A stretch of 64,000 nt of DNA from an uncultured Bacteroidia bacterium (GTDB lineage: Bacteria > Bacteroidota > Bacteroidia > Bacteroidales > F082). Location: the NCBI GenBank assembly GCA_902767725.1, contig CACXIM010000006.1:1-64000 (forward strand), written 5' to 3'. Both the position numbers and the translations under genes were made by a program. Below, piece after piece: positions 472 to 19,763 of this stretch (position 1 is its first letter; the number at the start of each line of letters is the position of its first letter). The notes under the pieces were generated by a model, which made no database searches, was not told the DNA's origin, and worked only from the letters and a program-made list of their open reading frames with translations.

Positions 472-486
472 AATAGAATAGTAGTC

Positions 487-2952: not shown

Positions 2953-2996
2953 AGAAAATGTTAGTATGGTAAATAATTAACATAAAATGCTGTGTC

Positions 2997-3605: not shown

Positions 3606-3666
3606 AGTGTTTTCAACGAACACCTAAAAAAATGCTGATATTTATAAATTACATTGATTATTTCTT

Positions 3667-3674
3667 TATCTTTG
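3667..3674 (+). promoter_or_regulatory. Bacteroidota -7 promoter box
   Basis: TATCTTTG matches the TAnnTTTG -7 consensus of Bacteroidota housekeeping promoters. It lies 49 bases before the next start codon. No clear -33 TTG was found at the expected distance. It is the best candidate promoter for the gene at 3724 and perhaps for the long cluster behind it. Confidence 0.55.
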
Positions 3675-3723
3675 CCTGCGAAGAGATGTTTAATTAAATG
3701 TAAACCACGAAAACAACACCGAC

Positions 3724-4218
3724 ATGCAATATACATTCAACAAACAAACCCTGTTCTATGACTACTTTCCACATCTGCCTGCATTGCGGATGAAGGAAAG
3801 CTTCGGCTTGAACTACTTCGAACAGTTTGTTATTCGCAGTGAGATCCAAAAGCTTGTCACTGCAGCATACGAAAACTTGGTAGATCAGCACGATCTGCGC
3901 CACTTCGACGTTTATGGCGAGATAGGCGAGCAGTTCGACGACAACTTCTACAGTGAGCTCAAGGTGGCTGTTACCCACAAGCTCCATGACGAGAACACCT
4001 GGACTTTCCTTGACGGTCTCATGCCCCGCTTGGAAATCGAGGACGAGCAAGAGAACGCCGACTTCATGACCAAGATAGGCGCCTCAATGGGTTTATGTCT
4101 GCCCAGGTCGCAGTCCACAGGCCATGTACTGCTCAAGGACGTGCTCATTCTGTTGATCAATTATGACTTGGAGCCGCTGAGCGGGCAGGAGTTGTTGGGG
4201 CTGACTAAGGTGCAATAG
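3724..4218 (+). CDS. Conserved-looking 164-residue protein of unknown function heading the ubiquitin-like/Tss cluster
   Basis: I do not recognise this protein. It has no signal peptide or membrane segment, is acidic, and appears mostly helical, with aromatic-rich ends (NKQTLFYDYFPHLPALRM near the N-terminus). It follows a good -7 promoter box and has the same direction and similar base composition as the following operon. About 100 AT-rich bases separate it from the next gene. By position it might be a cytoplasmic component of the injection or conjugation machinery, but that is only a guess from context. Confidence 0.55.
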   Translation: MQYTFNKQTLFYDYFPHLPALRMKESFGLNYFEQFVIRSEIQKLVTAAYENLVDQHDLRHFDVYGEIGEQFDDNFYSELKVAVTHKLHDENTWTFLDGLMPRLEIEDEQENADFMTKIGASMGLCLPRSQSTGHVLLKDVLILLINYDLEPLSGQELLGLTKVQ

Positions 4219-6117: not shown

Positions 6118-6432
6118 ATGGAAGAGTATTTTTTATTCCTTAGGTACAAGAACAAGACCATCAAGTTCAAGGTAAATGATCCTACGACAGACTTGGAAGT
6201 GTTGATGACCAACCTGCGCAAGGCGGTTGATGCCACGGGCGCTCGCATTTTCGACATGCCCGAAATGATTGACTATGTCCCTACCGAGTACTTCTTCGGC
6301 AAGAAGGACGAGGTGACAGGCCGCGACATTATCTTACAGCCTAAAGTGGGGAAGACCAAGAAGACCCTGCTTGACTATAACGTGAAGGCAGGCGATACAT
6401 TGGAAGTGATTTCTGATCCTATTGCTGGATAA
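6118..6432 (+). CDS. Ubiquitin-like protein with exposed C-terminal glycine
   Basis: This 104-residue protein has no signal peptide. Its last third, LLDYNVKAGDTLEVI, follows the end of ubiquitin (LSDYNIQKESTLHLV) closely, consistent with a beta-grasp fold. The N-terminal strand pair YFLFLRYKNKTIKFKV fits a beta hairpin. The chain ends in PIAG, so the terminal Gly is already exposed and no processing would be needed before E1 activation. The gene is followed after 21 bases by an E2 gene, and an E1 and a JAMM protease lie in the same run. It is the likely conjugated modifier. Alternative: a non-conjugated YukD-like scaffold, less likely given the neighbours. Confidence 0.8.
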   Translation: MEEYFLFLRYKNKTIKFKVNDPTTDLEVLMTNLRKAVDATGARIFDMPEMIDYVPTEYFFGKKDEVTGRDIILQPKVGKTKKTLLDYNVKAGDTLEVISDPIAG

Positions 6433-6453
6433 ATCTCTAAAAATCATAGCAAT

Positions 6454-7056
6454 ATGGAACAAGCTGAACAAATGAGAGAGATCGACCAGTATAGGCAGAA
6501 CCGTTATGTGGGTCGTAACCGTCGCTTGATGCACGAGTGGGTGGCTATCGACCAGCGTTTCAGGGAGGATAATGACATTACCTATATTATCCGCAAGCGT
6601 AACGCCGACAACCTGCCTACGCAATACGAGATTATCTTTAAGGTGAAATCGTTTTGCAATGTCGAGGAACCCGATGCAAACGGGTTGTGCAAGCCCGTTA
6701 CTGCCGATGAGTTCCACATGAACATTACCATCCCCAATAACTATCCCGCTGTCGACAGCAAGCTGGAGTTCAAGTTCCTTACTAAGGACAGTCAAGGCAA
6801 CCCAATTCCGCATCCCTGGCATCCTAACATCCGCTTCTTTGGGGACTTTGCGGGGCGCGTATGCCTCAACACGCCAGCCTGCGGTACTTTTACCGACCTG
6901 GCTTGGTATGTCGATCGCGTGATGTTGTATCTTAGATACGAGAAGTATCATGCAATGAACACGCCTCCTTTCCCGGAGGACAATAAAGTTGCCGAATGGG
7001 TGCTCGAACAAGCAGAGCCCAACGGCTGGATTGAACAATTAAGAAACGAAAACTAA
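6454..7056 (+). CDS. E2 ubiquitin-conjugating-like enzyme
   Basis: The 200-residue cytoplasmic protein shows the UBC-fold landmarks. Residues 93-99 (IPNNYPA) match the E2 'P.. YP' strand, 123-125 are HPN, and Cys137 in GRVCLN sits where the catalytic cysteine belongs. Trp151 and a 'PPFPEDN' segment after it match the usual helix and Pro-rich turn. HPN to Cys is a few residues longer than in eukaryotic E2s. It would take the thioester-bound modifier from the E1 encoded at 14599. An N-terminal helix of about 45 residues precedes the core. The HPN motif and Cys argue for an active enzyme rather than an inactive UEV-like variant. Confidence 0.85.
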   Translation: MEQAEQMREIDQYRQNRYVGRNRRLMHEWVAIDQRFREDNDITYIIRKRNADNLPTQYEIIFKVKSFCNVEEPDANGLCKPVTADEFHMNITIPNNYPAVDSKLEFKFLTKDSQGNPIPHPWHPNIRFFGDFAGRVCLNTPACGTFTDLAWYVDRVMLYLRYEKYHAMNTPPFPEDNKVAEWVLEQAEPNGWIEQLRNEN

Positions 7057-7062
7057 AACGCC

Positions 7063-8217
7063 ATGAAAAGATTAGCAATTATATTATTGACCCTTATGCC
7101 TACGATACTCTTTGCTCAGTATCAAGTGCAGGTGGCTTCGGGTGAGCCACAAACCTTAAAGGTATCGGTGCCGGCCTATAACGACCGTATTCCCGCCGCT
7201 ATCATGACCATGAAATTCGACTTCAACCCAGATGATGAGACACTTTTGGTCACCATGGGTAGTGGAGGTGTGGCTTCGCCTAACTACAATAAGGTGTGGC
7301 TCCCGCAACACGACATATCGTATAGTGAGATGGCGTCTTACATGAAGTCTCGTGGTATAAAGCTCAAGAAAGCCCAAACTTATGTCGATCAGGAAAACTT
7401 CCTTAACTTGGGTAGCCAACCTATTTCAGCTTCCATTCAATGCGAAGGCATGACATTCACGGGAGTTTACGATGTAAAGACTCCTAAAAACAAGAAGGTG
7501 AAGAAAGAACTTGACAAGCAGATGGTACCTTTGGATGGCAAGATGGAGCTCAATCTGAAATTCGACATCGTCAACAACCGCAGTGACTTGAAGTTGACCC
7601 TGCGCAACCCAATGCCTGCACACCGTAAGGGCAGCAAGGCCATCATCGACTTCGTGGCCAACGATGTGGTTATCGACATCCAACTCGACCGTTGCAAGGA
7701 AAGCCGCCAACTGCTGACTACCATTAACGAATATGTGGAAATGTTTAAGGTTGGAGAGAATAAACTGAACGAGTTGAAAAAATCGGGACGCTCATTGATG
7801 GATAAGGTGAAAGGCCTGTTGAATGAACAGTATCAGGAAATTGACATCAAGCGCTTCAAGAACACGGGTTGTGCCGAGATTGACCAGAAATGTGAGGAGC
7901 TTGAAGCTTATATGACTCGCATCAATGGTACAAAGTCAGGAGAAGGCGGTGGCGGAGGCGGCGGTGGAGGCACCATTAAGACTTCGTGTGGCGTGTCGGA
8001 TTCTGATGTCAAATCAACGACAACCAAATTGAATAACCTTGTGAATGAATGGTCGTTAGCTTCCTCTCCTGCTGCCAAGGCTGAGAAGAAAGCCTCGTTT
8101 GATGCCACCGTGAAGAGCTTTGATGCCAAATTGAACGGTCTCTCTGCTGATTGTAAGAAGAAGATCGACTCGAAGCTGCTTAAGAACTACGAATTTGTCA
8201 AGAAACTCATCAAATAA
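7063..8217 (+). CDS. Exported protein of unknown function with poly-Gly tract
   Basis: The 384-residue product has a clear signal peptide (MKRLAIILLTLMPTILFAQ) and no later membrane segment, so it should be periplasmic or outer-membrane associated. The first 200 residues look beta-rich. The C-terminal part is helical and split by a nine-Gly tract at about 298-306, encoded by a GGN-rich stretch near 7940-7970. Two Cys on either side of the tract (GCAEIDQKCEE and TSCGVSD) and one near the C-terminus (DCKKK) could form disulfides. It sits 6 bases after the E2 gene and 9 before the next, so it belongs to the operon. I do not recognise the family. Confidence 0.65.
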   Translation: MKRLAIILLTLMPTILFAQYQVQVASGEPQTLKVSVPAYNDRIPAAIMTMKFDFNPDDETLLVTMGSGGVASPNYNKVWLPQHDISYSEMASYMKSRGIKLKKAQTYVDQENFLNLGSQPISASIQCEGMTFTGVYDVKTPKNKKVKKELDKQMVPLDGKMELNLKFDIVNNRSDLKLTLRNPMPAHRKGSKAIIDFVANDVVIDIQLDRCKESRQLLTTINEYVEMFKVGENKLNELKKSGRSLMDKVKGLLNEQYQEIDIKRFKNTGCAEIDQKCEELEAYMTRINGTKSGEGGGGGGGGGTIKTSCGVSDSDVKSTTTKLNNLVNEWSLASSPAAKAEKKASFDATVKSFDAKLNGLSADCKKKIDSKLLKNYEFVKKLIK

Positions 8218-8226
8218 GTTGAAACC

Positions 8227-9006
8227 ATGAGGAAATACGTCAGCATACTCTTTGTCGTTGGGCTATTGTCGTTTTTTATGCCTAGGCCTTGTTTGGCACA
8301 GGATGAGATTACGGAATATGTCGCCGACGAACTCAAGGAATTCTACAAGGATTTGGACAAGATGGGTAGGCGGATCGATACGGCTGAGAATGTTGAGATG
8401 TATGAGACTGAGTTTAAGGCTCGCCACCAACTAGTGGAATCATGGTACAACATCAATAGTGAGATCATCTTCTCCGAGAAGTCCTTGCAGATGAAGTATA
8501 TCCAATACACCAGCCTCTATGAGCAGATATTGAAACGTATAGAGGAAAAGAAGGCGGAGAAAGTCAAGGCGGAGAAGATCCAGAAACTGACAGGCAAGTT
8601 CAACGGCTTCCTTCAGGAGATGAACACCATGGAAGAGAAGGGTAATCTGTATGTAGCCAACAAACGGATTGACTCACTCAAGATAATCAAGGACAAGGCC
8701 AACGATTGCTTCAACAGGGCGACCATGGAATATGGCAAGAGTCAAGAGCTCATCGACGAGGAAGAAGATCTGGAGACTTTGTGGGAGAGCATAAAAGATG
8801 CAAACTCCCGTATATCCAAGTTGGAAGTCATCAAAGGCTTTTGGGACAACATCGATTTGAAGTGGATTCTGATGCTCGTGGGTGTCCTTGCAGGTATCAC
8901 CCTTATCATTACCATGATTTCAAACAAGGTGAAGTCGGCCAAGATGACCAAAGTCCCTAAAGTAAAGAAAGAAAAGAAGAAAGAAGAAGACGTTCCTTCA
9001 ATCTAA
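8227..9006 (+). CDS. Signal-peptide, coiled-coil, single-TM envelope protein with lysine-rich cytoplasmic tail
   Basis: This 259-residue protein begins with a signal peptide (about 25 residues ending CLAQ). Residues 30-210 are charged and strongly helical, with coiled-coil character. A transmembrane segment follows near 216-234 (WILMLVGVLAGITLIITMI), and the last 25 residues are almost all Lys, Glu and Val, which places them in the cytoplasm. The layout of a periplasmic rod with an inner-membrane anchor resembles small envelope parts of secretion systems such as TssO or TssQ in Bacteroidota, but no sequence identity is claimed. It is spaced 9 and 5 bases from its neighbours. Confidence 0.65.
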   Translation: MRKYVSILFVVGLLSFFMPRPCLAQDEITEYVADELKEFYKDLDKMGRRIDTAENVEMYETEFKARHQLVESWYNINSEIIFSEKSLQMKYIQYTSLYEQILKRIEEKKAEKVKAEKIQKLTGKFNGFLQEMNTMEEKGNLYVANKRIDSLKIIKDKANDCFNRATMEYGKSQELIDEEEDLETLWESIKDANSRISKLEVIKGFWDNIDLKWILMLVGVLAGITLIITMISNKVKSAKMTKVPKVKKEKKKEEDVPSI

Positions 9007-9011
9007 TCGCT

Positions 9012-10607
9012 ATGAAAAACAAAATCGTAACTATAGTTTCCATCCTTTTGCTGGTAACGGTTGGGGTGATGGCCCAAGCACCCACCATGACTTTCGACGG
9101 CACCAAGCTGCGCGTCATGGTACCTGAGGGCTATCTGGAGCTGAAGCGTGATGCCATAAGCAACGAGGCTGTCCGTGACTGCTTCAATTGGACCGAAGAT
9201 GGTAGTTGTATTTTCATGTCTCAGTCTAACCCGTACATCTTTCAACCCAAAGGATTCCCTAAAGACGCGCAGTTAAGCATTGATGGACTGTTTAATGGCG
9301 AGCCTGTCAAGATCGCTGTAGAGATGGTGGAAGCAGCTCCCATTGGCAATAACAACAACGGTAACGGGAATGATAAGAAGACTGACTCGAGCCTGCTTGT
9401 GATTATTGGTATCGTTGTGTTGTTGCTGGTGTTGCTCGTCGTCTTTATGGTATTGAAGAAAAAGAAGAAAAGGGTTAAGGTCACTACGAAAGAGACCAAT
9501 GATCCCAACATCATTTCTGCCATTACCGATGAGTCAGTGAAATACGAAAAGGGGCTTCAGCATGTTAAGCAGCGGATGAACGAATACCTCACCTTCGACA
9601 TGGACATGGTGTTCGCCGATACCGCGGTCAACAAGGTGTACATGAACACTGGCCTTATTAAGAAACTGTATGACTTCTTCAACGGATCGCTTGAAGCTGA
9701 CGGACGTACCAACGAGACTGGATGTTTCATCTTAGGATGCTGGGACTACGAAGAAGGTCGTCGCAACCGCTACGACATCAGTCTTGAGGAAATGGTGGAA
9801 CCAGGCGACGATGCCAACTTCGGCGAATACAGCCTCAATTTCGGCAAGAAGATCAGTATCAATATGGCCTCGGTCATCGACAATCTTCAACAGAAGTCGA
9901 AACGCGACTATGTGTTGACCTGCTGGATGCACTCTCATCCTGGCTTGGGCCTGTTCCTCTCCAATCAAGATCTTGTTGTACAACAGCAATTGACCTATTC
10001 AGATCACCGCAACCGATTGATAGCCATCGTGATTGATACCAACACACCCGAATATAAGGTGGGCTTCTTCACGGCTAAGGCCGATGGCAAAATGAACAAT
10101 AAGGAAGAGGTGAAAAGATGGTTCTCGTTTGAGGAAATATATCGTCAAAGCCGTGAGTTGAACCGCACCCAACAGGCAAATAGCTCTCAGGAAGACAGTA
10201 CAGCCAACCATCCCGACTGCTTCAACGTCACCTTGGGCGATAAAAATATAGACATCATCGGTTTTGCGCCTCATGCGATCAATCAAATTGACCATACTTT
10301 GTATGCGGGCGTGAAAGGCGTTGTAGGTTATTTCTTTGGTGAGACCGACAATCGATATGTGCAAGTCGGCTGTTGCCTGCCATACGAGAATGATGAAAAG
10401 TTGGGTTGCCTTATCTTTGGTGATGGACTTAACGAAACTCAACTGGCCAACTATGCTAAAGACATTGCGGGTTGCCGCTTTTTCATCAACAGTACATCCG
10501 ACGACAAGCTGGTCGTTTGGACCAAAAACGAACAAGGTGGTTATGCACCCGCTGGCGAGACCACGTTGTCGCAAATGAAAGAATGGATTAGAAGAAAAAG
10601 AGTTTAA
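9012..10607 (+). CDS. Membrane-anchored JAMM/JAB (MPN+) metalloprotease, deubiquitinase-like
   Basis: The 531-residue protein has a signal peptide (to about 22), a short periplasmic domain, a transmembrane helix at 127-148 followed by a run of Lys, and a cytoplasmic C-terminal half. In that half Glu235, His307, His309, Ser317 and Asp320 form the full JAMM signature (E...HSHPGLGLFLSNQD). JAMM proteins of this class remove or process ubiquitin-like modifiers. Since the co-encoded modifier already ends in Gly, deconjugation from targets is more likely than maturation. Residues 400-530 form a second domain of unknown type. A membrane-tethered JAB is unusual; most bacterial ones are soluble. Confidence 0.85.
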   Translation: MKNKIVTIVSILLLVTVGVMAQAPTMTFDGTKLRVMVPEGYLELKRDAISNEAVRDCFNWTEDGSCIFMSQSNPYIFQPKGFPKDAQLSIDGLFNGEPVKIAVEMVEAAPIGNNNNGNGNDKKTDSSLLVIIGIVVLLLVLLVVFMVLKKKKKRVKVTTKETNDPNIISAITDESVKYEKGLQHVKQRMNEYLTFDMDMVFADTAVNKVYMNTGLIKKLYDFFNGSLEADGRTNETGCFILGCWDYEEGRRNRYDISLEEMVEPGDDANFGEYSLNFGKKISINMASVIDNLQQKSKRDYVLTCWMHSHPGLGLFLSNQDLVVQQQLTYSDHRNRLIAIVIDTNTPEYKVGFFTAKADGKMNNKEEVKRWFSFEEIYRQSRELNRTQQANSSQEDSTANHPDCFNVTLGDKNIDIIGFAPHAINQIDHTLYAGVKGVVGYFFGETDNRYVQVGCCLPYENDEKLGCLIFGDGLNETQLANYAKDIAGCRFFINSTSDDKLVVWTKNEQGGYAPAGETTLSQMKEWIRRKRV

Positions 10608-10618
10608 TTGAAAGAACT

Positions 10619-12994
10619 ATGAAACGTATAGCATTATTTTTATTGTTTTTGGTGTCATTTTGTTTGCCGGTGCTTGCACAAGTAGGCATGGAATTTGGTT
10701 CGGTGGAAGCCAACAAGACGAACCGCTTCGTCGATTTCAAGATGATGCGTGACGGCAAAAAGGTGCCTTATTTTGGGTTGAATGGTGACGATGTCAAGTG
10801 CTTTGAGGTCGTCAATGGCGACACGGTGGAGATTAAAATCGACAGTCTGGTCGATATTAGTGGTGACAAGCAAGTGTCGAACAACCTCACCGTTGTCATA
10901 CTTGCCGACCAAAGCGGTATCCTAAGTGACGATGACTACGTTAAGCTTCTCGAAGCCATTGTCTCGTTCGTGGATGCGCTTCCTGAATATGTCAAGGTTT
11001 ACATTTCAATGATGGGCAACGGCAAGACTGGCGTTACTATGACTGAGCGGATGCATGGAGGCGACGATGTGCGCTCCTTTGTACGTCGCGACAATATTGC
11101 CGATCGCACGCAAGCCGAGAAGTACGTTTATGGATCCATCATATCCAAGATTCAGGAAATCGCCAATGTGCCTGAAGAAGACTGCTTCTATTTCCCCGAC
11201 TACGACACCATCATGGTACACAACAGGGAGCTGAGTAACGACAGCCTTTCTGACAAGATGCTCTTCATCCTTTCCGGCAAAATCGACGAAGACAAAGACG
11301 AGAATTTCTTCCGCGACAAGAATCTTTTCAACAACGAAAAGTATTTGGACATCCCCGATCAACTGAAAGCCATCCATTGCATCTATTTTGGCGATGGCAT
11401 CGAGCCGGAAATGGAAAACGAGTTTAAGTTCATGTGCCATCGTACACCGGAAGGCCGCTTCTATCCCAACTATTCTGTCGACTCGCTGAAAGGCTTGCTT
11501 TTGGGCGCCATCGACAGTATTGCTATGGACTACCGTATGTATTATTCGGTAGGGGAGAAGATGACCTACAATGGGCAGCCCCTTTCACTCTATGTTGATA
11601 TTGACAAGGCGAGTGCCCGAGGGATGAAGCAGTATTCCTTTGGATCAGCCTTGCAGCCGGTTACTTTTGTCCCCTCTGGACAGTTTTCTGTATCCAAGAC
11701 CAAATGGTCGGGCATGTTGTTCGGACTGCTGTTAGGCATCGCCTTCATCGTCTTGGCATATCTCGTCATGCAGTTCCTCGTACCGTTGTTGCAGTACAAG
11801 CGTTTCAAGAGAAAATATGTAAAGAAATTCGATCCTAAAGTTGCTGCCAAAGATGGTAAGGATGTTGTGCTACAGCAATGCTACTATTGCAAGGATGACT
11901 TCCAAGAAGGAGACATCATCGTGACCAAGTGCAAGCACACTGTACACTGGGAGTGTTGGGAAGAAAACCACGATCGTTGTCCCGAGTACGGCCTCAACAG
12001 TTGCAAGGAAGGCATATACTACTACAACCGCAAGCACCTCACCGACGAACGCAACTCTCCGTATTTCACGTCTTGGCTGCTTTATGGATTGATTGGTGGC
12101 TTGATTTCTTGGATTCTTTTCCAACTTATCCCGAGCAGCGGTTTTCTCAGTGGGCCTTTGACTTGGCTTGTCAAGCTGTTTGAGGGTCCCGACAGCGTCC
12201 ATGTCAGTGAATATCTACAGAAGATTCAGCCTTTGCTGCTATGCGGCCTAATTATGGGCTTTGTCATCACGTTCTTGTTCAGCTATCTGATAGAATTCCG
12301 TAGGAAGACTTTCAAGATTTTGTTGATGATATTGTTAAGGTCGATAGGCAATGCCATCATCGGCTGCTTGGCCTTCTTGCTTGGTGCTGTGGTCATCATC
12401 GCCCTTGGCAAGTATATGAACTGTTGGTGGATCGACTGGGTGCCGTGGCTCTTCTTCGGTTGCAGCATCACGTGGTTGCTCTCGTTTAAGTCCGACATTA
12501 AGTTCAAAGAGGCCATTTTGGGCGGTCTCATTTCGGTGGTGCTCAGCTTTGTGGTTATCTATGGTCTTGGCTCATCAGTGCCTGCCATCGGCGTGCTGGC
12601 ATTTATGATTTATGCCGCTGGATTAGGTGCTTCCATTGCTGTGGTGCACTACACCTCGGAGAATTACTATCTCCACATCGAAGGCCCCACTAAGGAGCGT
12701 GATATCGCTATCTACAAGTGGATGAATGTGGCTGGAGGTTCAAACCATGTCACCATCGGCAGCTCGCCCAACTGTGTTATTGAGATGAACTGGGATGACA
12801 GCCCAGAGATTCGCGAAAAGCAGGTTGAGCTCTATATCGACAATGAACATCCCTACTGCTTGGCACTCACAGAAGGCACTACCTATAGCGATGAACAACG
12901 TGTGCTTAAGGAGGGTGACTCCATTCTTCTCGTTCATGGCAGTAGTTTCACCATAGGTAACACCAAATTTACCTATATTGAGAAGGATAAATAA
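10619..12994 (+). CDS. Multi-pass membrane protein with periplasmic vWA-like domain, RING-H2-like finger and C-terminal FHA-like domain; candidate E3
   Basis: This 791-residue protein carries a signal peptide (1-20) and a periplasmic region with a vWA-like start (LTVVILADQSG at 90-100). A transmembrane helix spans about 364-388. A cytoplasmic zinc module follows, with ligands Cys421, Cys424, Cys438, His440, His443, Cys446, Cys454 and Cys462, which is RING-H2 spacing apart from a wider last pair. Five or so more helices run from 486 to 677. The tail (about 690-791) has an FHA-like pattern (VTIGSSPNC ... GDSILL) but lacks the classical GR...S..H residues. With E1, E2, modifier and JAMM in the operon, an E3 ligase role at the membrane is the natural inference. 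It ends in a TAATG overlap with the next gene. Confidence 0.8.
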   Translation: MKRIALFLLFLVSFCLPVLAQVGMEFGSVEANKTNRFVDFKMMRDGKKVPYFGLNGDDVKCFEVVNGDTVEIKIDSLVDISGDKQVSNNLTVVILADQSGILSDDDYVKLLEAIVSFVDALPEYVKVYISMMGNGKTGVTMTERMHGGDDVRSFVRRDNIADRTQAEKYVYGSIISKIQEIANVPEEDCFYFPDYDTIMVHNRELSNDSLSDKMLFILSGKIDEDKDENFFRDKNLFNNEKYLDIPDQLKAIHCIYFGDGIEPEMENEFKFMCHRTPEGRFYPNYSVDSLKGLLLGAIDSIAMDYRMYYSVGEKMTYNGQPLSLYVDIDKASARGMKQYSFGSALQPVTFVPSGQFSVSKTKWSGMLFGLLLGIAFIVLAYLVMQFLVPLLQYKRFKRKYVKKFDPKVAAKDGKDVVLQQCYYCKDDFQEGDIIVTKCKHTVHWECWEENHDRCPEYGLNSCKEGIYYYNRKHLTDERNSPYFTSWLLYGLIGGLISWILFQLIPSSGFLSGPLTWLVKLFEGPDSVHVSEYLQKIQPLLLCGLIMGFVITFLFSYLIEFRRKTFKILLMILLRSIGNAIIGCLAFLLGAVVIIALGKYMNCWWIDWVPWLFFGCSITWLLSFKSDIKFKEAILGGLISVVLSFVVIYGLGSSVPAIGVLAFMIYAAGLGASIAVVHYTSENYYLHIEGPTKERDIAIYKWMNVAGGSNHVTIGSSPNCVIEMNWDDSPEIREKQVELYIDNEHPYCLALTEGTTYSDEQRVLKEGDSILLVHGSSFTIGNTKFTYIEKDK

Positions 12995-14589
12995 TGAAAA
13001 ACTTGAATGATATGAAAAAGATACTTCTTATTCTCATCATGACAGCCATTGCCGCAACCGCATGGGCGCAGTCGCAGATCTCGACGGTCAGAGGCAAGAC
13101 CAAGGATGGCAAGACCATCAAGGTGGACTACTACAAAGGCACTGTTGAAGATGTCATCCAATCGGTGAAATACCAACTTGTCGACGAACTACAAGCCAAC
13201 GTTAAGGATCTGCAGAGCCAGTCCAAGACGTTGCAAACCAAATTGGACGATGCCAAGAGGCAGGTCAAAGAATTGCAGAACCAATTGAGAAACTGTGGTG
13301 ATGCCAGTGAAGCGCAACGGCTCAGAAACCAGTTGACCGAGAAAGATAAGCAAATCACAAAACTGAATAAAGATATTGAGAAGCTCAATGCGCAAATCGC
13401 AGCCTTGCCTAAGGATGACATGAGCGAGACCTTAGACTCGTTGCGTCGGCAACTCATCGAAAAAGAGGGACTTATTTCTTCGGCGAACAAACAGGTGGTC
13501 AAATTGAATGCTGATGTGGTCCAGCTTGAAAAAGACAAAGAGGAGTTAAACAAGCGAATCGAGAGTTTGTCGCAGCAAGGCGACAATGCGGAAGAGATTC
13601 AGAGACTAAATAAGCAAATTGAGGAGAAAGACGTTCAAATCGGTCAGCTCAACAATAAGATTGCCAGGAACGAAGATGTCATCGACTCTCTGAAGCGAAA
13701 CACGAAAATTGTGGTGCCTGGCGACAATGATCAGCAGCTGAAAACACTGCGTGACGAGATAGCTGCAAAGGAAACTACCATTAGCGAATTGAGAAGAGAT
13801 CTCGACAACTGCCGCAAAGGCATAGTTAAGTCGGTCAAGTCGCCTGTCATCGGCTTTGAAGTAGGCTTCGGTCCTGCCTTCCCAGGCAGCAGCGTTGCCG
13901 AGCCTTGGGCCAAGGAGGTGAAGTCGTGTCTGCAAGCCGATGTTTATTTTGGAACGGCACGTTTGTCGGAATCGTTCCCCATCTCAGTGGAAGCTGGTTT
14001 GGGCTTCCGCAAGTTCGGCATGGCCGCTCGCCTCAACGAGTATAATACCACCCTTGATGCCGTGGATGCCGATGGCGATAGCTACAAGGCCATCTATGCT
14101 TTCGATGGTCTTGAGGAAAGCCTTTCGCTGACTTACCTCGACATCCCGATTCGTCTTTGCATCGGTCAACCTGCCAAAGAGCGTGTGTCGGCATACGTCA
14201 AGTTGGGTGTTACCCCTTCTATCAAGATGGGCTCCACCTTTGAAGGCAAGGGCAAATACAGCTTGAAGGGCTATTATCCCCAATGGGACGTGACATTAGA
14301 GAATGTAACTCCTTTGGAATTCGGCAGCGACATGGACTGCTATGAAGGCGTGGAGCCGGAAGTGAAGGGCTTCAACTTGTGGGGCAACGTGGCCTTTGGC
14401 GCCTACGTACCTTTCAAGGGCTCACATATCGTGCTCAACGCAGGTGCCAAGTTGGATTATCCTCTCATGGGCATAGGTACCATCAACACGACTGACAACT
14501 TGCCTGACGGCAAGGCTGGCTTGCTCCAAAACGGCGGCAAGGTGGTCGTTCCCAGTATCGAAGTTGGACTAGTGTATACACTTAAATAA
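12994..14589 (+). CDS. Coiled-coil outer-membrane-barrel-like protein
   Basis: The 531-residue product can start at 12994, overlapping the previous stop by one base, or at the ATG at 13012. The second start gives a cleaner signal peptide (MKKILLILIMTAIAATAWAQ). Residues 55-270 form a long heptad-rich coiled coil (repeated KLNxxI, KDKEELNK patterns). The C-terminal 250 residues are rich in Gly, aromatic residues and alternating hydrophobics, as in small PorT/OmpA-like beta barrels (VGFGPAFPGS, LGFRKFG, KLGVTPSIKMG), and end in VGLVYTLK. A barrel with a periplasmic coil could join the outer membrane to the inner-membrane RING protein. The barrel assignment is by pattern only. Confidence 0.7.
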   Translation: MKNLNDMKKILLILIMTAIAATAWAQSQISTVRGKTKDGKTIKVDYYKGTVEDVIQSVKYQLVDELQANVKDLQSQSKTLQTKLDDAKRQVKELQNQLRNCGDASEAQRLRNQLTEKDKQITKLNKDIEKLNAQIAALPKDDMSETLDSLRRQLIEKEGLISSANKQVVKLNADVVQLEKDKEELNKRIESLSQQGDNAEEIQRLNKQIEEKDVQIGQLNNKIARNEDVIDSLKRNTKIVVPGDNDQQLKTLRDEIAAKETTISELRRDLDNCRKGIVKSVKSPVIGFEVGFGPAFPGSSVAEPWAKEVKSCLQADVYFGTARLSESFPISVEAGLGFRKFGMAARLNEYNTTLDAVDADGDSYKAIYAFDGLEESLSLTYLDIPIRLCIGQPAKERVSAYVKLGVTPSIKMGSTFEGKGKYSLKGYYPQWDVTLENVTPLEFGSDMDCYEGVEPEVKGFNLWGNVAFGAYVPFKGSHIVLNAGAKLDYPLMGIGTINTTDNLPDGKAGLLQNGGKVVVPSIEVGLVYTLK

Positions 14590-14598
14590 GACTCCGCA

Positions 14599-15807
14599 AT
14601 GGAAGAAGTAGAAATCAAAGAATGGGGTAGGGAAGTCTTCGACCTGTTGTCGTGGTACAAGATGGACACCGTGAAGAACGCCAAGGTGATGGTGGTCGGC
14701 GCGGGAGCCTTGGGTAACGAAGTGCTGAAAAACCTTGCCTTGTTTGGCGTGGGCAACATCTATATTGTTGACTTCGACACCATAGAGTATAGCAATCTGA
14801 CACGCTCTGTGTTGTTCAGGGAGAATGATGCTGACAAAGGCTATTACAAAGCTGAGGTGGCAGCTCGCAAGGTACGCGAGATCAACCCGAACATCAACGT
14901 TCAGTACATTTGCGGAAAACTCAATACAGACGTGGGCTTGGGCCTCTATCGTCAAATGGACGTAGTCATTGGCTGTCTTGATAGTCGTCTGGCTCGCTTG
15001 CAGCTTAACCGTCTTTGTATGCGTGCCGATGTGCCATGGGTGGAAGGCGGCATGGAGAATTTGACAGGTAACGTCCGTGTCTTCAAGCAGGGCGAGAACT
15101 GCTATGAATGTGGCCTTACCGAAAATGCCAAGCAGAACATCTTCCAGCAGTTGTCGTGTGCAGGTGTGGCCCATCGCAACGAGAATGTGGGTCGCATCCC
15201 CACCACACCAGTCATCGCCTCTATTATCGGCGCCGTTGAGGTGCAGGAAGCCATGAAGCTGATCCATAAGGAAGAGGTGCAGTCGGGCGTGTTTTCCACC
15301 CTGCTCGGCAAATGGTTCCACTATGAAGGCATGCATAACCACGTCTCCGTATACGATTCTAATGCTTTCTTCGACGACTGCCCTTCACACGAATGCTGGA
15401 CCGATATCATGAAGATGCCTGCCTTGAGTGCTGAAACCCGTATCAACGATGCCTTCACTATGATCAAGGAGACATTCGGTGTCAACGAAGTGGAGATTAA
15501 CTTGCGCAATGACAAGTTTGTCGATGTCATCGTTTCGAAGAACGATAACCAACGCTTTACACCCATGTTGCCCGAGTCGAAGATCTCGGATTACATCGAC
15601 GGCAACTTCGACTTGTATACCCGCTCGAGGGCTGACCTCAACCAGAATGCCTACGAGAATATCGACGAGAACTTCCCTTATCAACGTCTAACTTTGCACG
15701 AAATCGGCATCCCTTATCTTGATGTCATTGAGGTGACTACGGAGAACGGTGTTCATCATATCGAACTCAGTGGAGACGTTGAACGTTATCCCATTATCGT
15801 CAAATAG
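14599..15807 (+). CDS. E1-like ThiF/MoeB-family adenylyltransferase (ubiquitin-activating-like)
   Basis: The 402-residue cytoplasmic protein has the E1 adenylation core: GAGALG at 34-39 for ATP, Asp58, Asn66-x-x-Arg69, Lys84 and the CLDSR segment at 126-130. Cys168 and Cys171 (CYEC) with Cys261 and Cys266 (CPSHEC) can form the zinc site. Cys187 precedes GRIPTTPVIASIIGAVEVQE, the crossover loop region where E1 enzymes carry their catalytic cysteine. The C-terminal 130 residues are a separate domain whose end (RLTLHEIGIPYLDVIEV) looks like a beta-grasp fold, as in the E2-recruiting ubiquitin-fold domain of eukaryotic E1s. It should adenylate the modifier at 6118 and pass it to the E2 at 6454. 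Confidence 0.88.
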   Translation: MEEVEIKEWGREVFDLLSWYKMDTVKNAKVMVVGAGALGNEVLKNLALFGVGNIYIVDFDTIEYSNLTRSVLFRENDADKGYYKAEVAARKVREINPNINVQYICGKLNTDVGLGLYRQMDVVIGCLDSRLARLQLNRLCMRADVPWVEGGMENLTGNVRVFKQGENCYECGLTENAKQNIFQQLSCAGVAHRNENVGRIPTTPVIASIIGAVEVQEAMKLIHKEEVQSGVFSTLLGKWFHYEGMHNHVSVYDSNAFFDDCPSHECWTDIMKMPALSAETRINDAFTMIKETFGVNEVEINLRNDKFVDVIVSKNDNQRFTPMLPESKISDYIDGNFDLYTRSRADLNQNAYENIDENFPYQRLTLHEIGIPYLDVIEVTTENGVHHIELSGDVERYPIIVK

Positions 15808-15815
15808 TTACAGCT

Positions 15816-16589
15816 ATGTCATATATCGACAAAGACCCTAACAATCAAGAACTGCTGGCCGAATTGTTGCTTTCGGTTTATTTTCCTAATGTCAAGAGTT
15901 GGAATGCCTCTTATGGGAGCTTCTTCTCGCGCAACTATTCCGGTGACTTGAGGTCGGTGCATGCCGATACGAATACGGTTACGTTATCGCGCAATGGCCT
16001 ATACGACATCCTGCCTGAAAAGATGTTCTTTGACGTAGACGAATTGCGTTTCAGGGAGAGCCGTGATTTGGCACAAAGAATAGACGAAATCTATGAGGAG
16101 GAGAAGAACATCAAGGACTATTTCATGCCTTTCGACTCTTTCTTCTTTAACCAGTCGTGCCATTATCACGCCATGGCAGCCCAACTCATCGACGATGAAG
16201 CCAAATGGCTACTTAAGCTTCTGTTTGACTACGACATCGATGCGGAGGAGAATCCTTACGTCAAGCAAATGGCGCCGCTTTTGCTCCATGTGACAGAGAT
16301 TAGGGCCGACCTTGATTTGATTGCTCAGATCCTTGCAGAGATTTTGGATTGCAAGATCGACTATCAAGTCAACCATCAGGACGAGGTGCTCTTTGTGGTA
16401 CACAAAAGGGACCTTAGCAGTGCGGAGTATTATGCCTTTGTGAAAGAACTCAAGCCCTTGTTTGACTTCGTTACCTTTTGGTTTATCTCCATGGAAATGG
16501 ATTGCCTATATAAAGTGAAGGATTACCACCAGCCATTCATTCTTTCGACCGAACGGCCGTTGGTTCTTGATTATAACACACATATTTGA
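15816..16589 (+). CDS. tssG: TssG-like contractile-system baseplate subunit
   Basis: This 257-residue soluble protein follows the E1 gene by 8 bases. The N-terminal pattern LLAELLLSV...SFFSRNYSGD followed by LSRNGLYDILPEKMFF fits, from memory, the Bacteroidota TssG family, in which an FSR..s.D element and a LYD.LPE segment recur. The remainder has no enzyme motifs. In type VI baseplates TssG dimerises with TssF to form the wedge with TssE. The assignment leans on the presence of TssK-, TssE- and TssF-like genes directly downstream. Confidence is moderate because TssG is a fast-evolving family. Confidence 0.6.
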   Translation: MSYIDKDPNNQELLAELLLSVYFPNVKSWNASYGSFFSRNYSGDLRSVHADTNTVTLSRNGLYDILPEKMFFDVDELRFRESRDLAQRIDEIYEEEKNIKDYFMPFDSFFFNQSCHYHAMAAQLIDDEAKWLLKLLFDYDIDAEENPYVKQMAPLLLHVTEIRADLDLIAQILAEILDCKIDYQVNHQDEVLFVVHKRDLSSAEYYAFVKELKPLFDFVTFWFISMEMDCLYKVKDYHQPFILSTERPLVLDYNTHI

Positions 16590-16620
16590 GAATTACATTA
16601 ATGATATACAGTAATATACT

Positions 16621-17505
16621 ATGAATACAGATATCAGAATCGATTGGCAGTCTGGCATGGAAATCACGCCCCAGACCTTCATCGACATGGAAAACAACAT
16701 CTCGGAGAACAGATTGCTGGTCCGTAAGATGATTGCTGCAACCAATTTTGGAGTCATTCCCAGAACCAAATTCTTGGTTTCGCAAGAAATAGTCAACAAC
16801 ACCTTGATGATCAAGCAGATTAATTGCGACATTCTGCTTCCATCGGGGCAGGTGGTTGTGGTAGAGAACAACGAGCCTATGCAACTCGTCATTCCTCAGA
16901 AAGAAGAGCAGGTCTTATATCTTACTGTGGAGCTGGGCGAGAGCATCAAGTCATTCAGCAAAGAAGATATTCCTCATGTGGCCAATGAGATAAAGTTTGA
17001 TTTTAGGCCGCTATCCGAAATCAGGAACGCAGTGCCTCTGCTCAAGCTGATGCAAGTCAATGGTGTGTGGTCGGTCTTCGACCCATACATCTTGCCCGTC
17101 ATGTCGGTCAGATCGTCGGTGATCTTGCTTGAAAAACTGGAAGAACTTAAGCAAGAGACTCAAAAAATCATTGGACACGAGCATGCCATGGTTTTGGAAG
17201 ACCGTGTACTCATCATGTTGTTGCTTGAGCAGCTGGCTTCTTTCCCAGTCGACGACTCGTCGCGCGAGTTGGTGGTGCTTTGCAAGCGCATTGCAAGCGC
17301 GTTAGGATATTCTGTTTATAAGCAGCGTCCCGACTTGCCATCACCCAATCTTATGGATATCGCTCCCTATCTCAATGCCTTCAAATTCTTCCTTTCTGAC
17401 GTTGCCACGGCCATGAACGACCTGAAGGCTACCGTAGTTGAAGTGAAGGAACCTGAACCGGAGCCAGAGCCGCCTGTAGAGGATGTGTTCTGCCCGATTA
17501 TCTAA
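16621..17505 (+). CDS. tssK: TssK-like baseplate adaptor
   Basis: The 294-residue protein begins with IDWQSGMEITPQTF, which matches the TssK hallmark W..GM.I...HF at the N-terminus, and continues with GVIP and a 'CDILLPSGQ' segment typical of TssK shoulders. PLLKLMQVNGVW near 140 also fits the family. It is shorter than proteobacterial TssK (about 440) but close to the length expected in Bacteroidota. TssK links the baseplate wedge to the membrane complex. The C-terminal tail is Glu/Pro-rich (EPEPEPEPP), then ends VFCPII. The gap before the gene is 31 bases. Confidence 0.75.
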   Translation: MNTDIRIDWQSGMEITPQTFIDMENNISENRLLVRKMIAATNFGVIPRTKFLVSQEIVNNTLMIKQINCDILLPSGQVVVVENNEPMQLVIPQKEEQVLYLTVELGESIKSFSKEDIPHVANEIKFDFRPLSEIRNAVPLLKLMQVNGVWSVFDPYILPVMSVRSSVILLEKLEELKQETQKIIGHEHAMVLEDRVLIMLLLEQLASFPVDDSSRELVVLCKRIASALGYSVYKQRPDLPSPNLMDIAPYLNAFKFFLSDVATAMNDLKATVVEVKEPEPEPEPPVEDVFCPII

Positions 17506-17523
17506 CCCCCAAAAAAGTGTTTT

Positions 17524-18003
17524 ATGTTAATTAGGAATCCATTGCAATTACGTTATCCTATCGTAGACCTGGATGATAACAACACGAAGGCGTCTATTGA
17601 TACCTTCCTTAAGCTCTTGATTTCCTCCAATAAATACGATAGCATAGCCGATGAAGAATTCGGCTTCTGTCTTGAGGACTTCCGCTACGAGGGCTTCAGC
17701 TCTGAAGATGCTCGTTTCCTCGACCGTATGCCTGTTCAGAAAGATGCGACCGAAAACACTATGCTGAGTGCCATCAAGAACCCATTATATGGCAAGAAAC
17801 TCATCGGGAATAGCAAGAATGCCGACACCTTCGCGAGGGAACTGAAGACCTGCATTGAGCGGTATGAAAAGCGGCTAAAAGATGTTGCAGTTACCATGGA
17901 TTTCCAGAAAAACGCGAGAATCATCCATGTCATCGTGACCGGCGTCATCAACAATACCGCCAATACGATTTATTATAACGAGTTTAATATTGAAGTCTGG
18001 TAA
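17524..18003 (+). CDS. tssE: TssE/gp25-like baseplate wedge protein
   Basis: The 159-residue protein has the gp25-like pattern: an N-terminal helix with a series of small polar residues, EFGFCLEDF at about 45-53, then a C-terminal half with CIERYEKRLKDVAV, matching the I..YE.RL..V signature of gp25/TssE, followed by paired beta strands. In phage T4 and type VI systems this protein joins the wedge to the sheath. The gene lies between the TssK- and TssF-like genes with gaps of 18 and 14 bases. Confidence 0.72.
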   Translation: MLIRNPLQLRYPIVDLDDNNTKASIDTFLKLLISSNKYDSIADEEFGFCLEDFRYEGFSSEDARFLDRMPVQKDATENTMLSAIKNPLYGKKLIGNSKNADTFARELKTCIERYEKRLKDVAVTMDFQKNARIIHVIVTGVINNTANTIYYNEFNIEVW

Positions 18004-18017
18004 AAAACGGAATAATT

Positions 18018-19763
18018 ATGACACAAGAAGATTATGATATTCAGGTTCAGGTCGACAATTTGATGCAGAAAGTCCTGGAATCGTGGAAGCGCGAAGGCAA
18101 ATGGGATGGAAATAACCCCAATTCGCCCTTCTACGGCTTTGAGAAGGACCCGCTGCTGCGCATCCTTCTGACAGCTTTTGTCTATCAGACCAATGGCTTG
18201 AAGACGGATATTCAAAATATGGAGCAAGAATTGATTGGCGACTTTCAGAATGCCATCTTGCCTTATAAACTCACGCAGTCCATTCCAGCCTTTACGATGA
18301 TCAAGACTGCCAAATCCGAGAACGAAAAAAAACCGCTTTTCTGCGACGAAACTTCTACCTTCCTTGTTAAGAAGGAGTCATTGCGCATCAAAGAATATTT
18401 CCCGTTTCATCCTTTGTTCCGATCCAAAATCATAGGAATGAAAGTCAATGGTGTCACCAAGATTGCCAGTGACAAATGGAATGTCAATATCGATGTTAGC
18501 GATACCGATGCTGATCTGTCATACTTTGGTTTCTTGGTTAATGGATTGAAATATAGTGATTTGAATGTTTATTGGAACAACGAAAAGCTTCCTTTAATCA
18601 AACCATGGGAGTATGACCGTTTTCCGAAGACCTCATGGTTTGCCGACTCCAATGTCGCTTATAACAAATCTTTGGTTTTTGGCGATGAAACCATCTGGCA
18701 CGACCTGTGGGCGGAGTTGAACGTGAACTATTATATGGTGGTACCGACCTTCCATCGTCAGATAGACTCAGATATGATTAATTTTGTGTTTGAGTTTGTC
18801 GGGATGTCGAAGCCATTCAATTTCGATACCGAAAATCTGGTCTTCAACTGTCTGCCGGCACTCAATGTTATCAAGAAGGATTTCCAGCTATCGAATAATG
18901 AACCTATCGCTAAGCTTGCCATCGAGCCTGACTTTGAGGAGACTGAAGAAAGCGCGGTGCGCATGGTCAATTCGGCCCTTGCCGAGAACAACCACCCGGA
19001 TTTCTTCATGAGTCTCATTAAGAATCCTAATTCTACATTGGACGATTGGAACAAGGTTAGTTTGCGCCGATTCGGTTGCGAGCGTTTCAATATGGATGAG
19101 TTGATACGCCTCGCTGACCAACTCTCTATCCGCTATGAGTCAGATTTTTATGCCTTCCAAAAGATTCACAAGATGCAGAACGTTGATAAGATTCGTCGTC
19201 TGGATATCGTGTTGAAAGACATCATAGGAGCAATTACAAACACCAAAACACCTACTTCGGGCGTTTATGCCATTTTGAAAAAAGGCAAGGCCGACGTGCA
19301 GGTTAACATCCAGCTTTCCGGACTTTTCACTGATGGCGCCTATTCCAACGACATTGATATCTTCAGTGAAGTGGTGCCCCCCAAGACCTTCGAAAAGAAT
19401 GAGACCCGCCTGCTCTTCAAGACTTTCGGCGGCAAGGACGAGGTCATTGACAAGGACGAAAAGAACATGCTGGCCAAGTACTATGCTCGTACCAACGACC
19501 GCATTGTGACCCGTGCCGACATAAAGGCTTTTTGTTTCCGTTATTTTGCCCAAAACGGCTTTGGCGAGGCTTTACTCGATGTGACGAGCGTGATTGAACG
19601 CAAAGATGGCTTGGCGACACAACACGTGACACTACAACTGAAGAGTGACTTTGTGCGCGACAGGGAAGACATTTCCATGCTGATCGACCGCTTGAAGAAA
19701 CTTATTCAAGTACGCAGTGTCAATCTGATTCCTGTTGTGGTGGAGTATTTGGCTGTGGTGTAG
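18018..19763 (+). CDS. tssF: TssF-like baseplate wedge protein
   Basis: At 581 residues this has the length of TssF. The N-terminal region, KDPLLRILLTAFVYQTNGLKTDIQNMEQEL, then ILPYKLTQSIPAFTM, matches TssF, where DP...RLL.. F.. is followed by a P..PS segment. A late segment ARTNDRIVTRADIKAFCFRYF resembles the 'R.vt.ed....' element shared by TssF and phage gp6-type baseplate proteins. It closes the operon. Its last 44 bases overlap the 3' end of miaA on the opposite strand. No sheath, tube or ClpV gene follows. Confidence 0.72.
   Translation: MTQEDYDIQVQVDNLMQKVLESWKREGKWDGNNPNSPFYGFEKDPLLRILLTAFVYQTNGLKTDIQNMEQELIGDFQNAILPYKLTQSIPAFTMIKTAKSENEKKPLFCDETSTFLVKKESLRIKEYFPFHPLFRSKIIGMKVNGVTKIASDKWNVNIDVSDTDADLSYFGFLVNGLKYSDLNVYWNNEKLPLIKPWEYDRFPKTSWFADSNVAYNKSLVFGDETIWHDLWAELNVNYYMVVPTFHRQIDSDMINFVFEFVGMSKPFNFDTENLVFNCLPALNVIKKDFQLSNNEPIAKLAIEPDFEETEESAVRMVNSALAENNHPDFFMSLIKNPNSTLDDWNKVSLRRFGCERFNMDELIRLADQLSIRYESDFYAFQKIHKMQNVDKIRRLDIVLKDIIGAITNTKTPTSGVYAILKKGKADVQVNIQLSGLFTDGAYSNDIDIFSEVVPPKTFEKNETRLLFKTFGGKDEVIDKDEKNMLAKYYARTNDRIVTRADIKAFCFRYFAQNGFGEALLDVTSVIERKDGLATQHVTLQLKSDFVRDREDISMLIDRLKKLIQVRSVNLIPVVVEYLAVV

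Follow-up and report, generated by a model that had tools for sequence, protein, structure and literature searches.

A predicted ubiquitin-like conjugation pathway shares a gene run with likely type VI secretion baseplate genes in Bacteroidales

Results

The window, that is, the whole 64,000-nucleotide stretch of DNA analyzed here, contains a run of 12 genes, all on the + strand, of which the first encodes a ubiquitin-like protein (UBL), the second an E2, and the last four are likely tssG, tssK, tssE, and tssF. The UBL (6118..6432, 104 aa), whose C-terminal residue is a free glycine, is followed by an E2-like ubiquitin-conjugating enzyme (6454..7056, 200 aa). Next are b1 (7063..8217), which has a signal-like N terminus, is predicted to be secreted or periplasmic, and is kept in both subtypes, and cc2 (8227..9006), for which hydropathy predicts a periplasmic protein with a C-terminal transmembrane (TM) segment. 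These precede a JAB/JAMM deconjugase-like protein with a predicted membrane anchor and cytosolic JAMM domain (9012..10607) and a RING protein, a candidate membrane E3, which harbors, in order, a signal, a vWA-like domain, a TM segment, the RING, several TM segments, and an FHA-like C terminus (10619..12994). OMPcc (12994..14589), for which hydropathy and weak family matches suggest a signal, a coiled coil, and a possible outer-membrane β-barrel domain, and an E1-like activating enzyme of the ThiF type (14599..15807, 402 aa) lead into the likely baseplate genes, encoding the wedge protein TssG (15816..16589), the adaptor TssK (16621..17505), the gp25-like TssE (17524..18003), and the wedge protein TssF (18018..19763).

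An earlier note on this DNA had placed a TssG-like gene 8 bases after the E1 gene on the same strand, which the coordinates bear out exactly. It had also given gaps of 18 to 31 bases between the four baseplate genes; this holds for tssG–tssK (31 bases) and tssK–tssE (18 bases) but not for tssE–tssF, which are 14 bases apart. Sigma-70-like sites were as numerous as in shuffled sequence and terminator-like sites slightly more so, and no operon start was placed. The shared strand, the gaps of at most 31 bases, and a gene order kept in dozens of loci strongly support the notion, also put forward earlier, that the UBL-pathway and baseplate halves belong to one unit.

The relation of the four closing genes to Tss families is weak or absent when single sequences are searched but emerges with family profiles. 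As single sequences, TssK matched TIGR03353 at 2.1e-9 (37 bits, against a cut-off of 100) and TssE matched the gp25/TssE family PF04965 at 4.1e-6 (27.0 bits, against a cut-off of 27.2), and the TssG- and TssF-like proteins matched no Tss family. PF05947 (TssF) was present in 12 of 113 relatives of the TssF-like protein, and the NCBIfam TssF model matched one of 20 TssF rows, at 0.005. In a noncircular test, profiles built from ubiquitin-type rows alone were run at E ≤ 1 against the 192 ORFs of 17 TssN-bearing stretches, several of which do not cover all four genes; counterparts were found in 11 of the 17 stretches for tssG (best 3.6e-21), 15 for tssK (3.2e-13), 6 for tssE (3.6e-12), and 10 for tssF (4.2e-29). 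Each profile matched no more than one gene per stretch, at the expected place. At locus L045, TssG is independently named by PF06996 (9.8e-12) and neighbors TssN (PF17555, 5.1e-88); the TssG profile matched it at 2.9e-10 with L045 left out and at 1e-52 when L045 was in the profile. Alignment profiles of TssG and TssF matched no PDB chain at E ≤ 10, and solved Tss structures thus give these two proteins no sequence confirmation. Collectively, the matches to canonical T6SSiii counterparts agree with the earlier assignment of the four products as TssG-, TssK-, TssE-, and TssF-like and indicate that the genes are likely the baseplate genes of a T6SSiii-related system.

The UBL tested positive as a β-grasp modifier with a C-terminal glycine, and this glycine is free in all 39 aligned rows. 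The E1 matched ThiF at 2.5e-54 as a single sequence and has SUMO E1 subunit 2 as its nearest solved relative (1.7e-28); GxGALGN, R69, K84, D128, and Cys187, the candidate catalytic cysteine, are invariant in 42 of 42 rows. The E2 matched PF00179 under the cut-off (0.0059), as did its C18 paralogue (4e-6), and the E2 family profile matched UBE2K at 8.1e-4. Its HPN motif (residues 123–125) and candidate catalytic Cys137 are invariant (35/35 rows). The E2 profile gathered 1,225 relatives, some of which may belong to other systems; among the 120 matches listed, 7 are named, all as “hypothetical protein,” and a search for the E2 in plasmids gave no match. The RING protein matched zf-RING_2 under the cut-off (3.6e-4), with eight metal ligands invariant in 43 of 43 rows. 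Its predicted model matches vWA and FHA domains, and PF00498 (FHA) occurs in 34 of the 120 relatives listed for a Prevotella-type RING member. The JAB protein, with a predicted TM region at residues 122–153, matched PF14464 under the cut-off (0.048), and E235, H307, H309, S317, and D320 are invariant in its nine rows. JAB is present in just 8 of 46 loci, and UBL removal may therefore be absent elsewhere; a scan of the loci saw the JAMM motif only in window-type loci and L049. These features predict a complete ubiquitin-like conjugation pathway consisting of UBL, E1, E2, and a likely membrane-anchored RING and JAB.

The profile of b1 matched the Prevotella-type F6 family (probability 97.7), and a Pfam search with b1 matched no family; cc2 matched the F7 family (97.4). 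OMPcc gave a weak match to OMP_b-brl_2 (0.042) and weak coiled-coil matches, and its profile matched neither the PEGA nor the F14 family.

Neither of the outcomes named in the earlier note as refuting its view, products unrelated to Tss families or halves never adjacent, was observed. E1 is present in 41 of 46 loci and always adjoins tssG on the same strand, the distance from the E1 end to tssG being −60 to +100 bases in 40 loci and −124 in the other (median −4); this adjacency is not due to chance. Among the five E1-less loci, L002, L011, and L031 begin downstream of the place of E1, L010 is a second tandem cluster, and L045 is a canonical T6SSiii. The UBL starts −60 to +100 bases from the tssF end in 33 of the 46 loci. 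Across loci, UBL, RING, and tssGKEF keep together and candidate effectors vary, and genome G006 contains a tandem second baseplate with its own UBL and RING, without E1, E2, or JAB. Genome G337 harbors a UBL-E1-E2-JAB-RING cassette on a 43-kb contig with no T6SS match and is itself without TssC. The canonical order also varies, with TssN located outside the tssG–tssK interval in L126, L129, and L132. Adjacency of tssG and tssK does not distinguish the new type, since the two genes are also neighbors in the TssN-bearing L126. Mantel correlations cannot tell function from shared descent.

The contractile baseplate described in the earlier note is present, but it is part of more than a baseplate: relatives carry sheath, tube, VgrG, and PAAR-like genes upstream, indicating a whole T6SS. 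The TssC sheath family PF17541 was found in 26 of 28 locus-bearing genomes, Hcp/TssD (PF17642) in all 28, and VipB (PF05943) in none of them. Spike genes of relatives match VgrG (PF04717, 4.5e-17) and the PAAR-like DUF4280 (9.5e-32); the window contig carries neither. The host bacterium is kin of rumen Bacteroidales. In its own genome, TssC is located at the edge of contig C14, whose gene order and lengths are those found left of the locus in G001; Hcp is on C61, apart from the window contig. TssB was assigned by position, its own-genome protein matching PF05591 at just 0.068.

TssN was over the cut-off in none of the 28 genomes (one match, 6e-4, fell under it), and the positive controls worked. 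TssO was likewise over the cut-off in 0 of 28 genomes, compared with 6 of 6 TssN genomes; the one match under it was the cc2 gene of G008 (4.8e-4). TssR was over the cut-off in 0 of 28, though it was positive in just 2 of 6 TssN genomes. G166 and G562 contain T6SS loci with neither TssN nor the UBL pathway, and hence TssN loss needs no UBL. The C-terminal tail of TssK is acidic, closes with P-x-[ILM], and differs from that of canonical T6SSiii TssK; the motif is absent from L049 and L119, two diverged ubiquitin-type TssK proteins. No lysine is conserved in 80% of the 42 ubiquitin-type TssK rows, so a fixed acceptor on TssK appears unlikely from the alignment.

Discussion

In B. fragilis, TssN binds TssK and has a predicted ubiquitin-like domain, and a T6SSiii survey reports a membrane complex, whole or in part, in all 443 systems that it found (PMC10781749). 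Our best reading is that the locus represents a T6SS subtype whose UBL would be conjugated and, together with membrane RING and JAB proteins, assume the docking role proposed for TssN; both conjugation and its target are inferred. For the window, we put at roughly one in two the probability that the UBL pathway, encoded in one run with the likely tssGKEF, places UBL on and takes it off the baseplate at the inner membrane in place of TssN docking. E1 would activate the UBL and hand it to E2. The RING protein, probably seated in the inner membrane, its vWA-like domain facing the periplasm and its RING and FHA domains the cytosol, would steer transfer onto a baseplate subunit, and JAB, where present, would undo the attachment. 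The altered TssK tail may bind an altered membrane partner, and the UBL would govern docking of the injection machine to the cell membrane. Docking is favored by the lack of any tssN match over the cut-off in the 28 genomes, the changed TssK tail, the predicted membrane location of RING and JAB, and the second G006 baseplate with its own UBL and RING. A wider generalization, in which this Bacteroidales subtype has its own UBL and transmembrane RING ligase for each baseplate and a reversible covalent bond both replaces TssN docking and acts as the assembly or firing switch, is offered tentatively. The proposal of the earlier note that a UBL tag controls assembly, disassembly, or cargo of the machine is possible.

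The UBL might instead mark cargo: effectors, VgrG, or PAAR proteins would receive it as a signal of loading or quality and lose it before the machine fires. Indeed, the UBL gene directly follows a PAAR-like (DUF4280) gene in G008 (L081) and in the G006 tandem cluster, and L113 has one unknown ORF between PAAR and UBL. However, candidate effectors change while UBL, RING, and tssGKEF stay joined, with the UBL mostly near the tssF end, and neither the missing tssN nor the changed TssK tail is explained, which makes a cargo mark unlikely. It is quite improbable that the UBL labels spent sheath or baseplate for TssH/ClpV-like disassembly or degradation: though a ClpB-family AAA+ gene stands at the cluster head, ahead of tssB and tssC, a TssH-like gene is also found in canonical and UBL-less T6SS loci (L120, L127, L128, and L129), none of 10 scanned L079 proteins matches a protease family, and RING and JAB are predicted at the membrane, not with the sheath.

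The constant pairing of E1 with tssG, their ends mostly overlapping, and the joint duplication of UBL and RING with the second G006 baseplate argue against an independent defense or regulatory cassette inserted by chance in the T6SS cluster. The related G337 cassette without a T6SS would fit such an origin, as would matches of E1 to E1-E2 defense models (best 7.7e-17) and of JAB to a defense JAB model (1.2e-4), but PADLOC at E ≤ 0.1 gave no match for UBL, E2, RING, TssG, or TssF, and its matches for TssK (0.027) and TssE–DndD (3.7e-4) look like chance; we regard this origin as very unlikely. A UBL that is solely a noncovalent scaffold, or is itself exported, with the enzymes used otherwise, has a precedent in EccD, which employs a ubiquitin-like domain as a scaffold, and in the similar use proposed for TssN (PMC10781749). 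E1 and E2 have invariant candidate catalytic cysteines, the HPN motif and the C-terminal glycine of the UBL are likewise invariant, and RING and JAB are predicted to stay anchored in the cell that makes them; together, these points render it highly improbable.

Here, an E1-E2-RING-UBL set, unannotated so far, is integrated with a contractile injection machine found in Bacteroidales of the gut and rumen. If the docking reading is true, this would be a second prokaryotic job for ubiquitin-like signaling, would hint at baseplate docking in T6SSs without TssN, and would supply a compact system for testing RING-type ligation outside eukaryotes. The bacterial ubiquitin-like systems of known role found in our literature search act in phage defense. 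Burroughs, Iyer, and Aravind reportedly surveyed RING proteins in 2011. Our searches of the open-licence literature yielded no report of a T6SS with ubiquitin-like conjugation, and the term “ubiquitin” is absent from the main text of Coyne 2016 (PMC4714493).

The T6SSiii of Bacteroidota, such as that of Bacteroides fragilis (GA3; PMC10781749), comes from the same phylum and shares with the present system TssC (PF17541), Hcp (PF17642), TssE, TssF, TssG, TssK, VgrG, and PAAR-like and TssH-like proteins, with TssB by position. The present system differs in having no TssN, TssO, or TssR over the cut-off in 28 genomes, another TssK tail, and genes for UBL, E1, E2, RING, and in some cases JAB inside the cluster. 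The prokaryotic UBL/E1/E2/JAB logic is that of BilABCD and type II CBASS (PMC11354881 and PMC10097602), but here E1 and E2 are separate, a RING protein is present, and the context is a T6SS rather than defense. According to PMC11354881, BilB carries a CEHH motif, whereas the E2 here has HPN and Cys, and the BilABCD modifier has two ubiquitin-like domains and a JAB-cut tail, whereas the UBL here is a single short domain of 104 aa that ends in glycine with no tail. The cascade of Caldiarchaeum subterraneum (PMC5654768) likewise combines eukaryote-like E1, E2, RING, and ubiquitin-like proteins in a prokaryote. Unlike the system described here, that cascade is archaeal. It is also soluble and is not known to be accompanied by a secretion machine. 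Finally, EccD of type VII secretion (7b7j and 7b9f) contains a ubiquitin-like domain fused to a membrane protein, in contrast to the free ubiquitin-like domain here, which has a C-terminal glycine and is encoded together with predicted conjugation enzymes.

The UBL Pathway and the Baseplate Genes Form a Single Run

The locus is a twelve-gene run on the + strand (6118–19763) that encodes, in order, a ubiquitin-like modifier (UBL), a conjugating-like enzyme (E2), the predicted periplasmic proteins b1 and cc2, a deconjugase-like protein (JAB), a candidate membrane E3 (RING), a coiled-coil protein with a possible outer-membrane β-barrel domain (OMPcc), an activating-like enzyme (E1), TssG, TssK, TssE, and TssF. 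The largest internal gap is 31 bases, and a miaA-like gene on the opposite strand, at 19720, overlaps the end of the run. The earlier note had placed the E1, tssG, tssK, tssE, and tssF genes (14599–19763) exactly, all on the + strand, and its distances hold for the first three gaps (8 bases for E1–tssG, then 31 and 18), whereas the last is 14 bases, below the 18 to 31 noted.

Directly before the UBL gene is a secreted protein (4321–6075) that contains InlB-like repeats and has a tail for Por (type IX) secretion; a similar-tailed protein occupies the equivalent place in another locus, L079. The region before the locus (46–4218) encodes a protein of 821 aa carrying a metallopeptidase-like HETIH motif, flanked by two small, mutually similar-looking proteins. 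Its N terminus resembles (36–42% over 45–81 aa) similarly placed proteins in relatives, and these genes are a candidate effector and immunity set.

In single-sequence searches, the TssK model (2.1e-9) and, for the TssE-like protein, the gp25 model (4.1e-6) matched the window's proteins under the curated cut-offs, and the TssG- and TssF-like proteins matched no Tss family. Although these matches are weak, the family-level evidence for a predicted Tss identity is strong. The TssF-like protein has 113 relatives, 12 of them with PF05947, and the TssF alignment found a Mucilaginibacter locus (L045) with TssG by PF06996 (9.8e-12) and TssN by PF17555 (5.1e-88). In a noncircular test, profiles built from proteins of ubiquitin-type loci (tssGKEF with the UBL pathway) alone were run on 192 ORFs in 17 TssN-bearing stretches, several too short for all four baseplate genes; they matched exclusively genes at the expected places (tssG in 11 stretches, tssK in 15, tssE in 6, and tssF in 10). 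The Tss-like assignments of the earlier note are therefore upheld by family profiles, which pick out canonical tssG, tssK, tssE, and tssF.

The Arrangement Recurs across Bacteroidales Genomes

A TssF alignment search of genome contigs yielded 45 loci, titled Bacteroidales, Bacteroidia, Bacteroidaceae, Prevotellaceae, Prevotella, Muribaculaceae, Bacteroides, and one Mucilaginibacter. With a second locus of the window's own genome (L049), 46 were scored by phmmer using the window's proteins: E1 was present in 41, tssG 43, tssK 42, tssE 43, RING 42, UBL 38, E2 34, and JAB 8, several absences being due to truncation of the stretch at a contig or flank end. The E1–baseplate pairing that the earlier note proposed to survey is thus recurrent, with E1 ending −60 to +100 bases from tssG in 40 of 41 loci (median −4). 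The order E1-tssG-tssK-tssE-tssF-UBL-E2-RING, on a single strand, is found in 31 of the 46; the window's arrangement, with UBL-E2 first and with JAB and OMPcc, is a second subtype. Prevotella-type counterparts correspond to b1 and cc2 with probabilities of 97.7 and 97.4. Prevotella-type T6SS clusters also contain a ribosome recycling factor-like protein (family F14; L012:5751-6461), and the one such protein scanned, from L012, matched PF01765 (4.4e-13).

The rest of the machine was sought in 28 locus-bearing genomes (27 selected among the genomes that supplied the loci, together with the window's own, which is 79.6% complete and 5.8% contaminated). T6SSiii-family TssC was present in 26, Hcp in all 28, and VipB in none. 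The fetched stretches run TssH-like, TssB (named by position), TssC, Hcp, VgrG, and PAAR-like, with variable genes interspersed, and then the ubiquitin-baseplate run. The window starts at a contig start (C6), and another contig, C14, has TssC, TssB, and TssH at its edge, beside genes of the same order and length as those left of the locus in genome G001; we infer that C14 and C6 adjoin. Contig C18 (L049/L090) carries the second, diverged set, OMPcc-UBL-E2-two unknown ORFs-JAB-RING-E1-tssG-tssK-tssE-tssF; the TssC-Hcp-VgrG-PAAR genes on C61 may serve it. A few genes beyond its tssF there is a gene for a Ser/Thr kinase (PF00069, 2e-44).

In genome G006, two baseplate sets occupy a contiguous 46 kb, the second with its own VgrG, PAAR, UBL, and RING and without E1, E2, or JAB; L005 and L006/L010 look similarly tandem within the extent of the stretches. 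If every baseplate has a modifier and a ligase of its own, UBL and RING should be copied along with it and E1 and E2 should not, which is the pattern here. The TssC tree, with 26 rows, contains a branch (99/98) that has 15 of the 16 ubiquitin-type rows on the same side; the remaining one (L114, G365) takes a basal position in the TssN-bearing group. The program flags long branches, and labels are by genome, with TssC of L085 and L091 off the UBL-gene contig and L074 linked by synteny. The UBL–T6SS association seems to be an old one. Over the 32 of 46 loci with all eight genes, pairwise distances of the four Tss proteins track those of E1, UBL, E2, and RING (correlations of 0.69 to 0.97), which shows shared inheritance, not interaction.

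A Covalent UBL May Replace TssN

TssN exceeded the cut-off in 0 of the 28 locus-bearing genomes (single match below it, 6e-4), as did TssO, which was positive in six of six control TssN genomes. TssR was likewise over cut-off in 0 of 28, but just two of six TssN genomes were positive for it. The sole TssO match in the 28, below cut-off (4.8e-4), was a cc2 relative (L081:18034-18840, G008), and cc2 may be distantly related to TssO. Among 295 genomes of the order, which share G000 and G493 (taken as G007) with the 28, TssC was found in 15, TssN in 6 (6 more below cut-off), and E2 in 5. TssN and E2 never occurred together; TssC accompanied all six TssN and four of five E2 occurrences (Fisher p 2e-5 for E2 versus TssC). 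According to PMC10781749, tssN sits between tssK and tssG, as in controls such as L045, L096, L098, L099, L127, and L128. However, TssN is on the other side of tssK in L126 and beyond tssF in L129 and L132, so tssG–tssK adjacency is no argument; absence of the gene is.

All 42 complete ubiquitin-type TssK proteins counted, leaving out two rows cut by stretch ends, finish in P-x-[ILM] preceded by an acidic stretch, and the window's TssK has this ending too. In contrast, 0 of 15 TssK proteins from canonical (TssN-bearing) loci have it, and 14 of 15 have a terminal Asp following an aromatic-containing stretch. The diverged ubiquitin-type rows L049 and L119 lack the P-x-[ILM] end. This difference suggests a changed docking partner. 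TssE Lys 22, 91, and 92 are kept in 86% of 43 ubiquitin-type rows (0 of 6 canonical), TssF Lys 503 in 95% of 43 (20% of 10), and TssG Lys 235 in 88% of 42 (20% of 10); no TssK lysine was kept in ubiquitin-type but rare in canonical rows of the same comparison. As the alignment spans distant sequences, these lysines are a weak lead to possible acceptors.

The cassette can occur without the T6SS, and the T6SS without the cassette. Five TssC genomes of the 295 had neither TssN nor E2. G166 and G562 have clear T6SS loci without TssN or UBL genes, that of G166 (L120) adjoining kinase, FHA, and M23 peptidase genes; the remaining three (G554, G584, and G587) are represented by short contigs or a fragment at an edge. 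Conversely, G337 (L115–L117) has a UBL-E1-E2-JAB-RING/vWA cassette next to SrfB and Virul_Fac genes, with no Tss match on its 43-kb contig and no TssC in the genome; its UBL has four extra residues past the Gly.

According to PMC10781749, TssN of T6SSiii lies in the inner membrane and binds TssK; the paper assigns its predicted cytosolic domain a ubiquitin-like fold similar to EccD and proposes a role in docking the baseplate. Given that TssN is not found, that the TssK tail is altered, and that a free EccD/ubiquitin-like UBL occurs with a predicted membrane ligase and deconjugase, we propose as the simplest account that docking passed from TssN to a covalently and reversibly attached UBL, which the membrane RING protein would place. 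Searches of open-licence literature found no report pairing a T6SS with ubiquitin-like conjugation. By the TssN and TssO tests the system is not a T6SSiii member as PMC10781749 describes it; its sheath, tube, and baseplate are related to those of T6SSiii.
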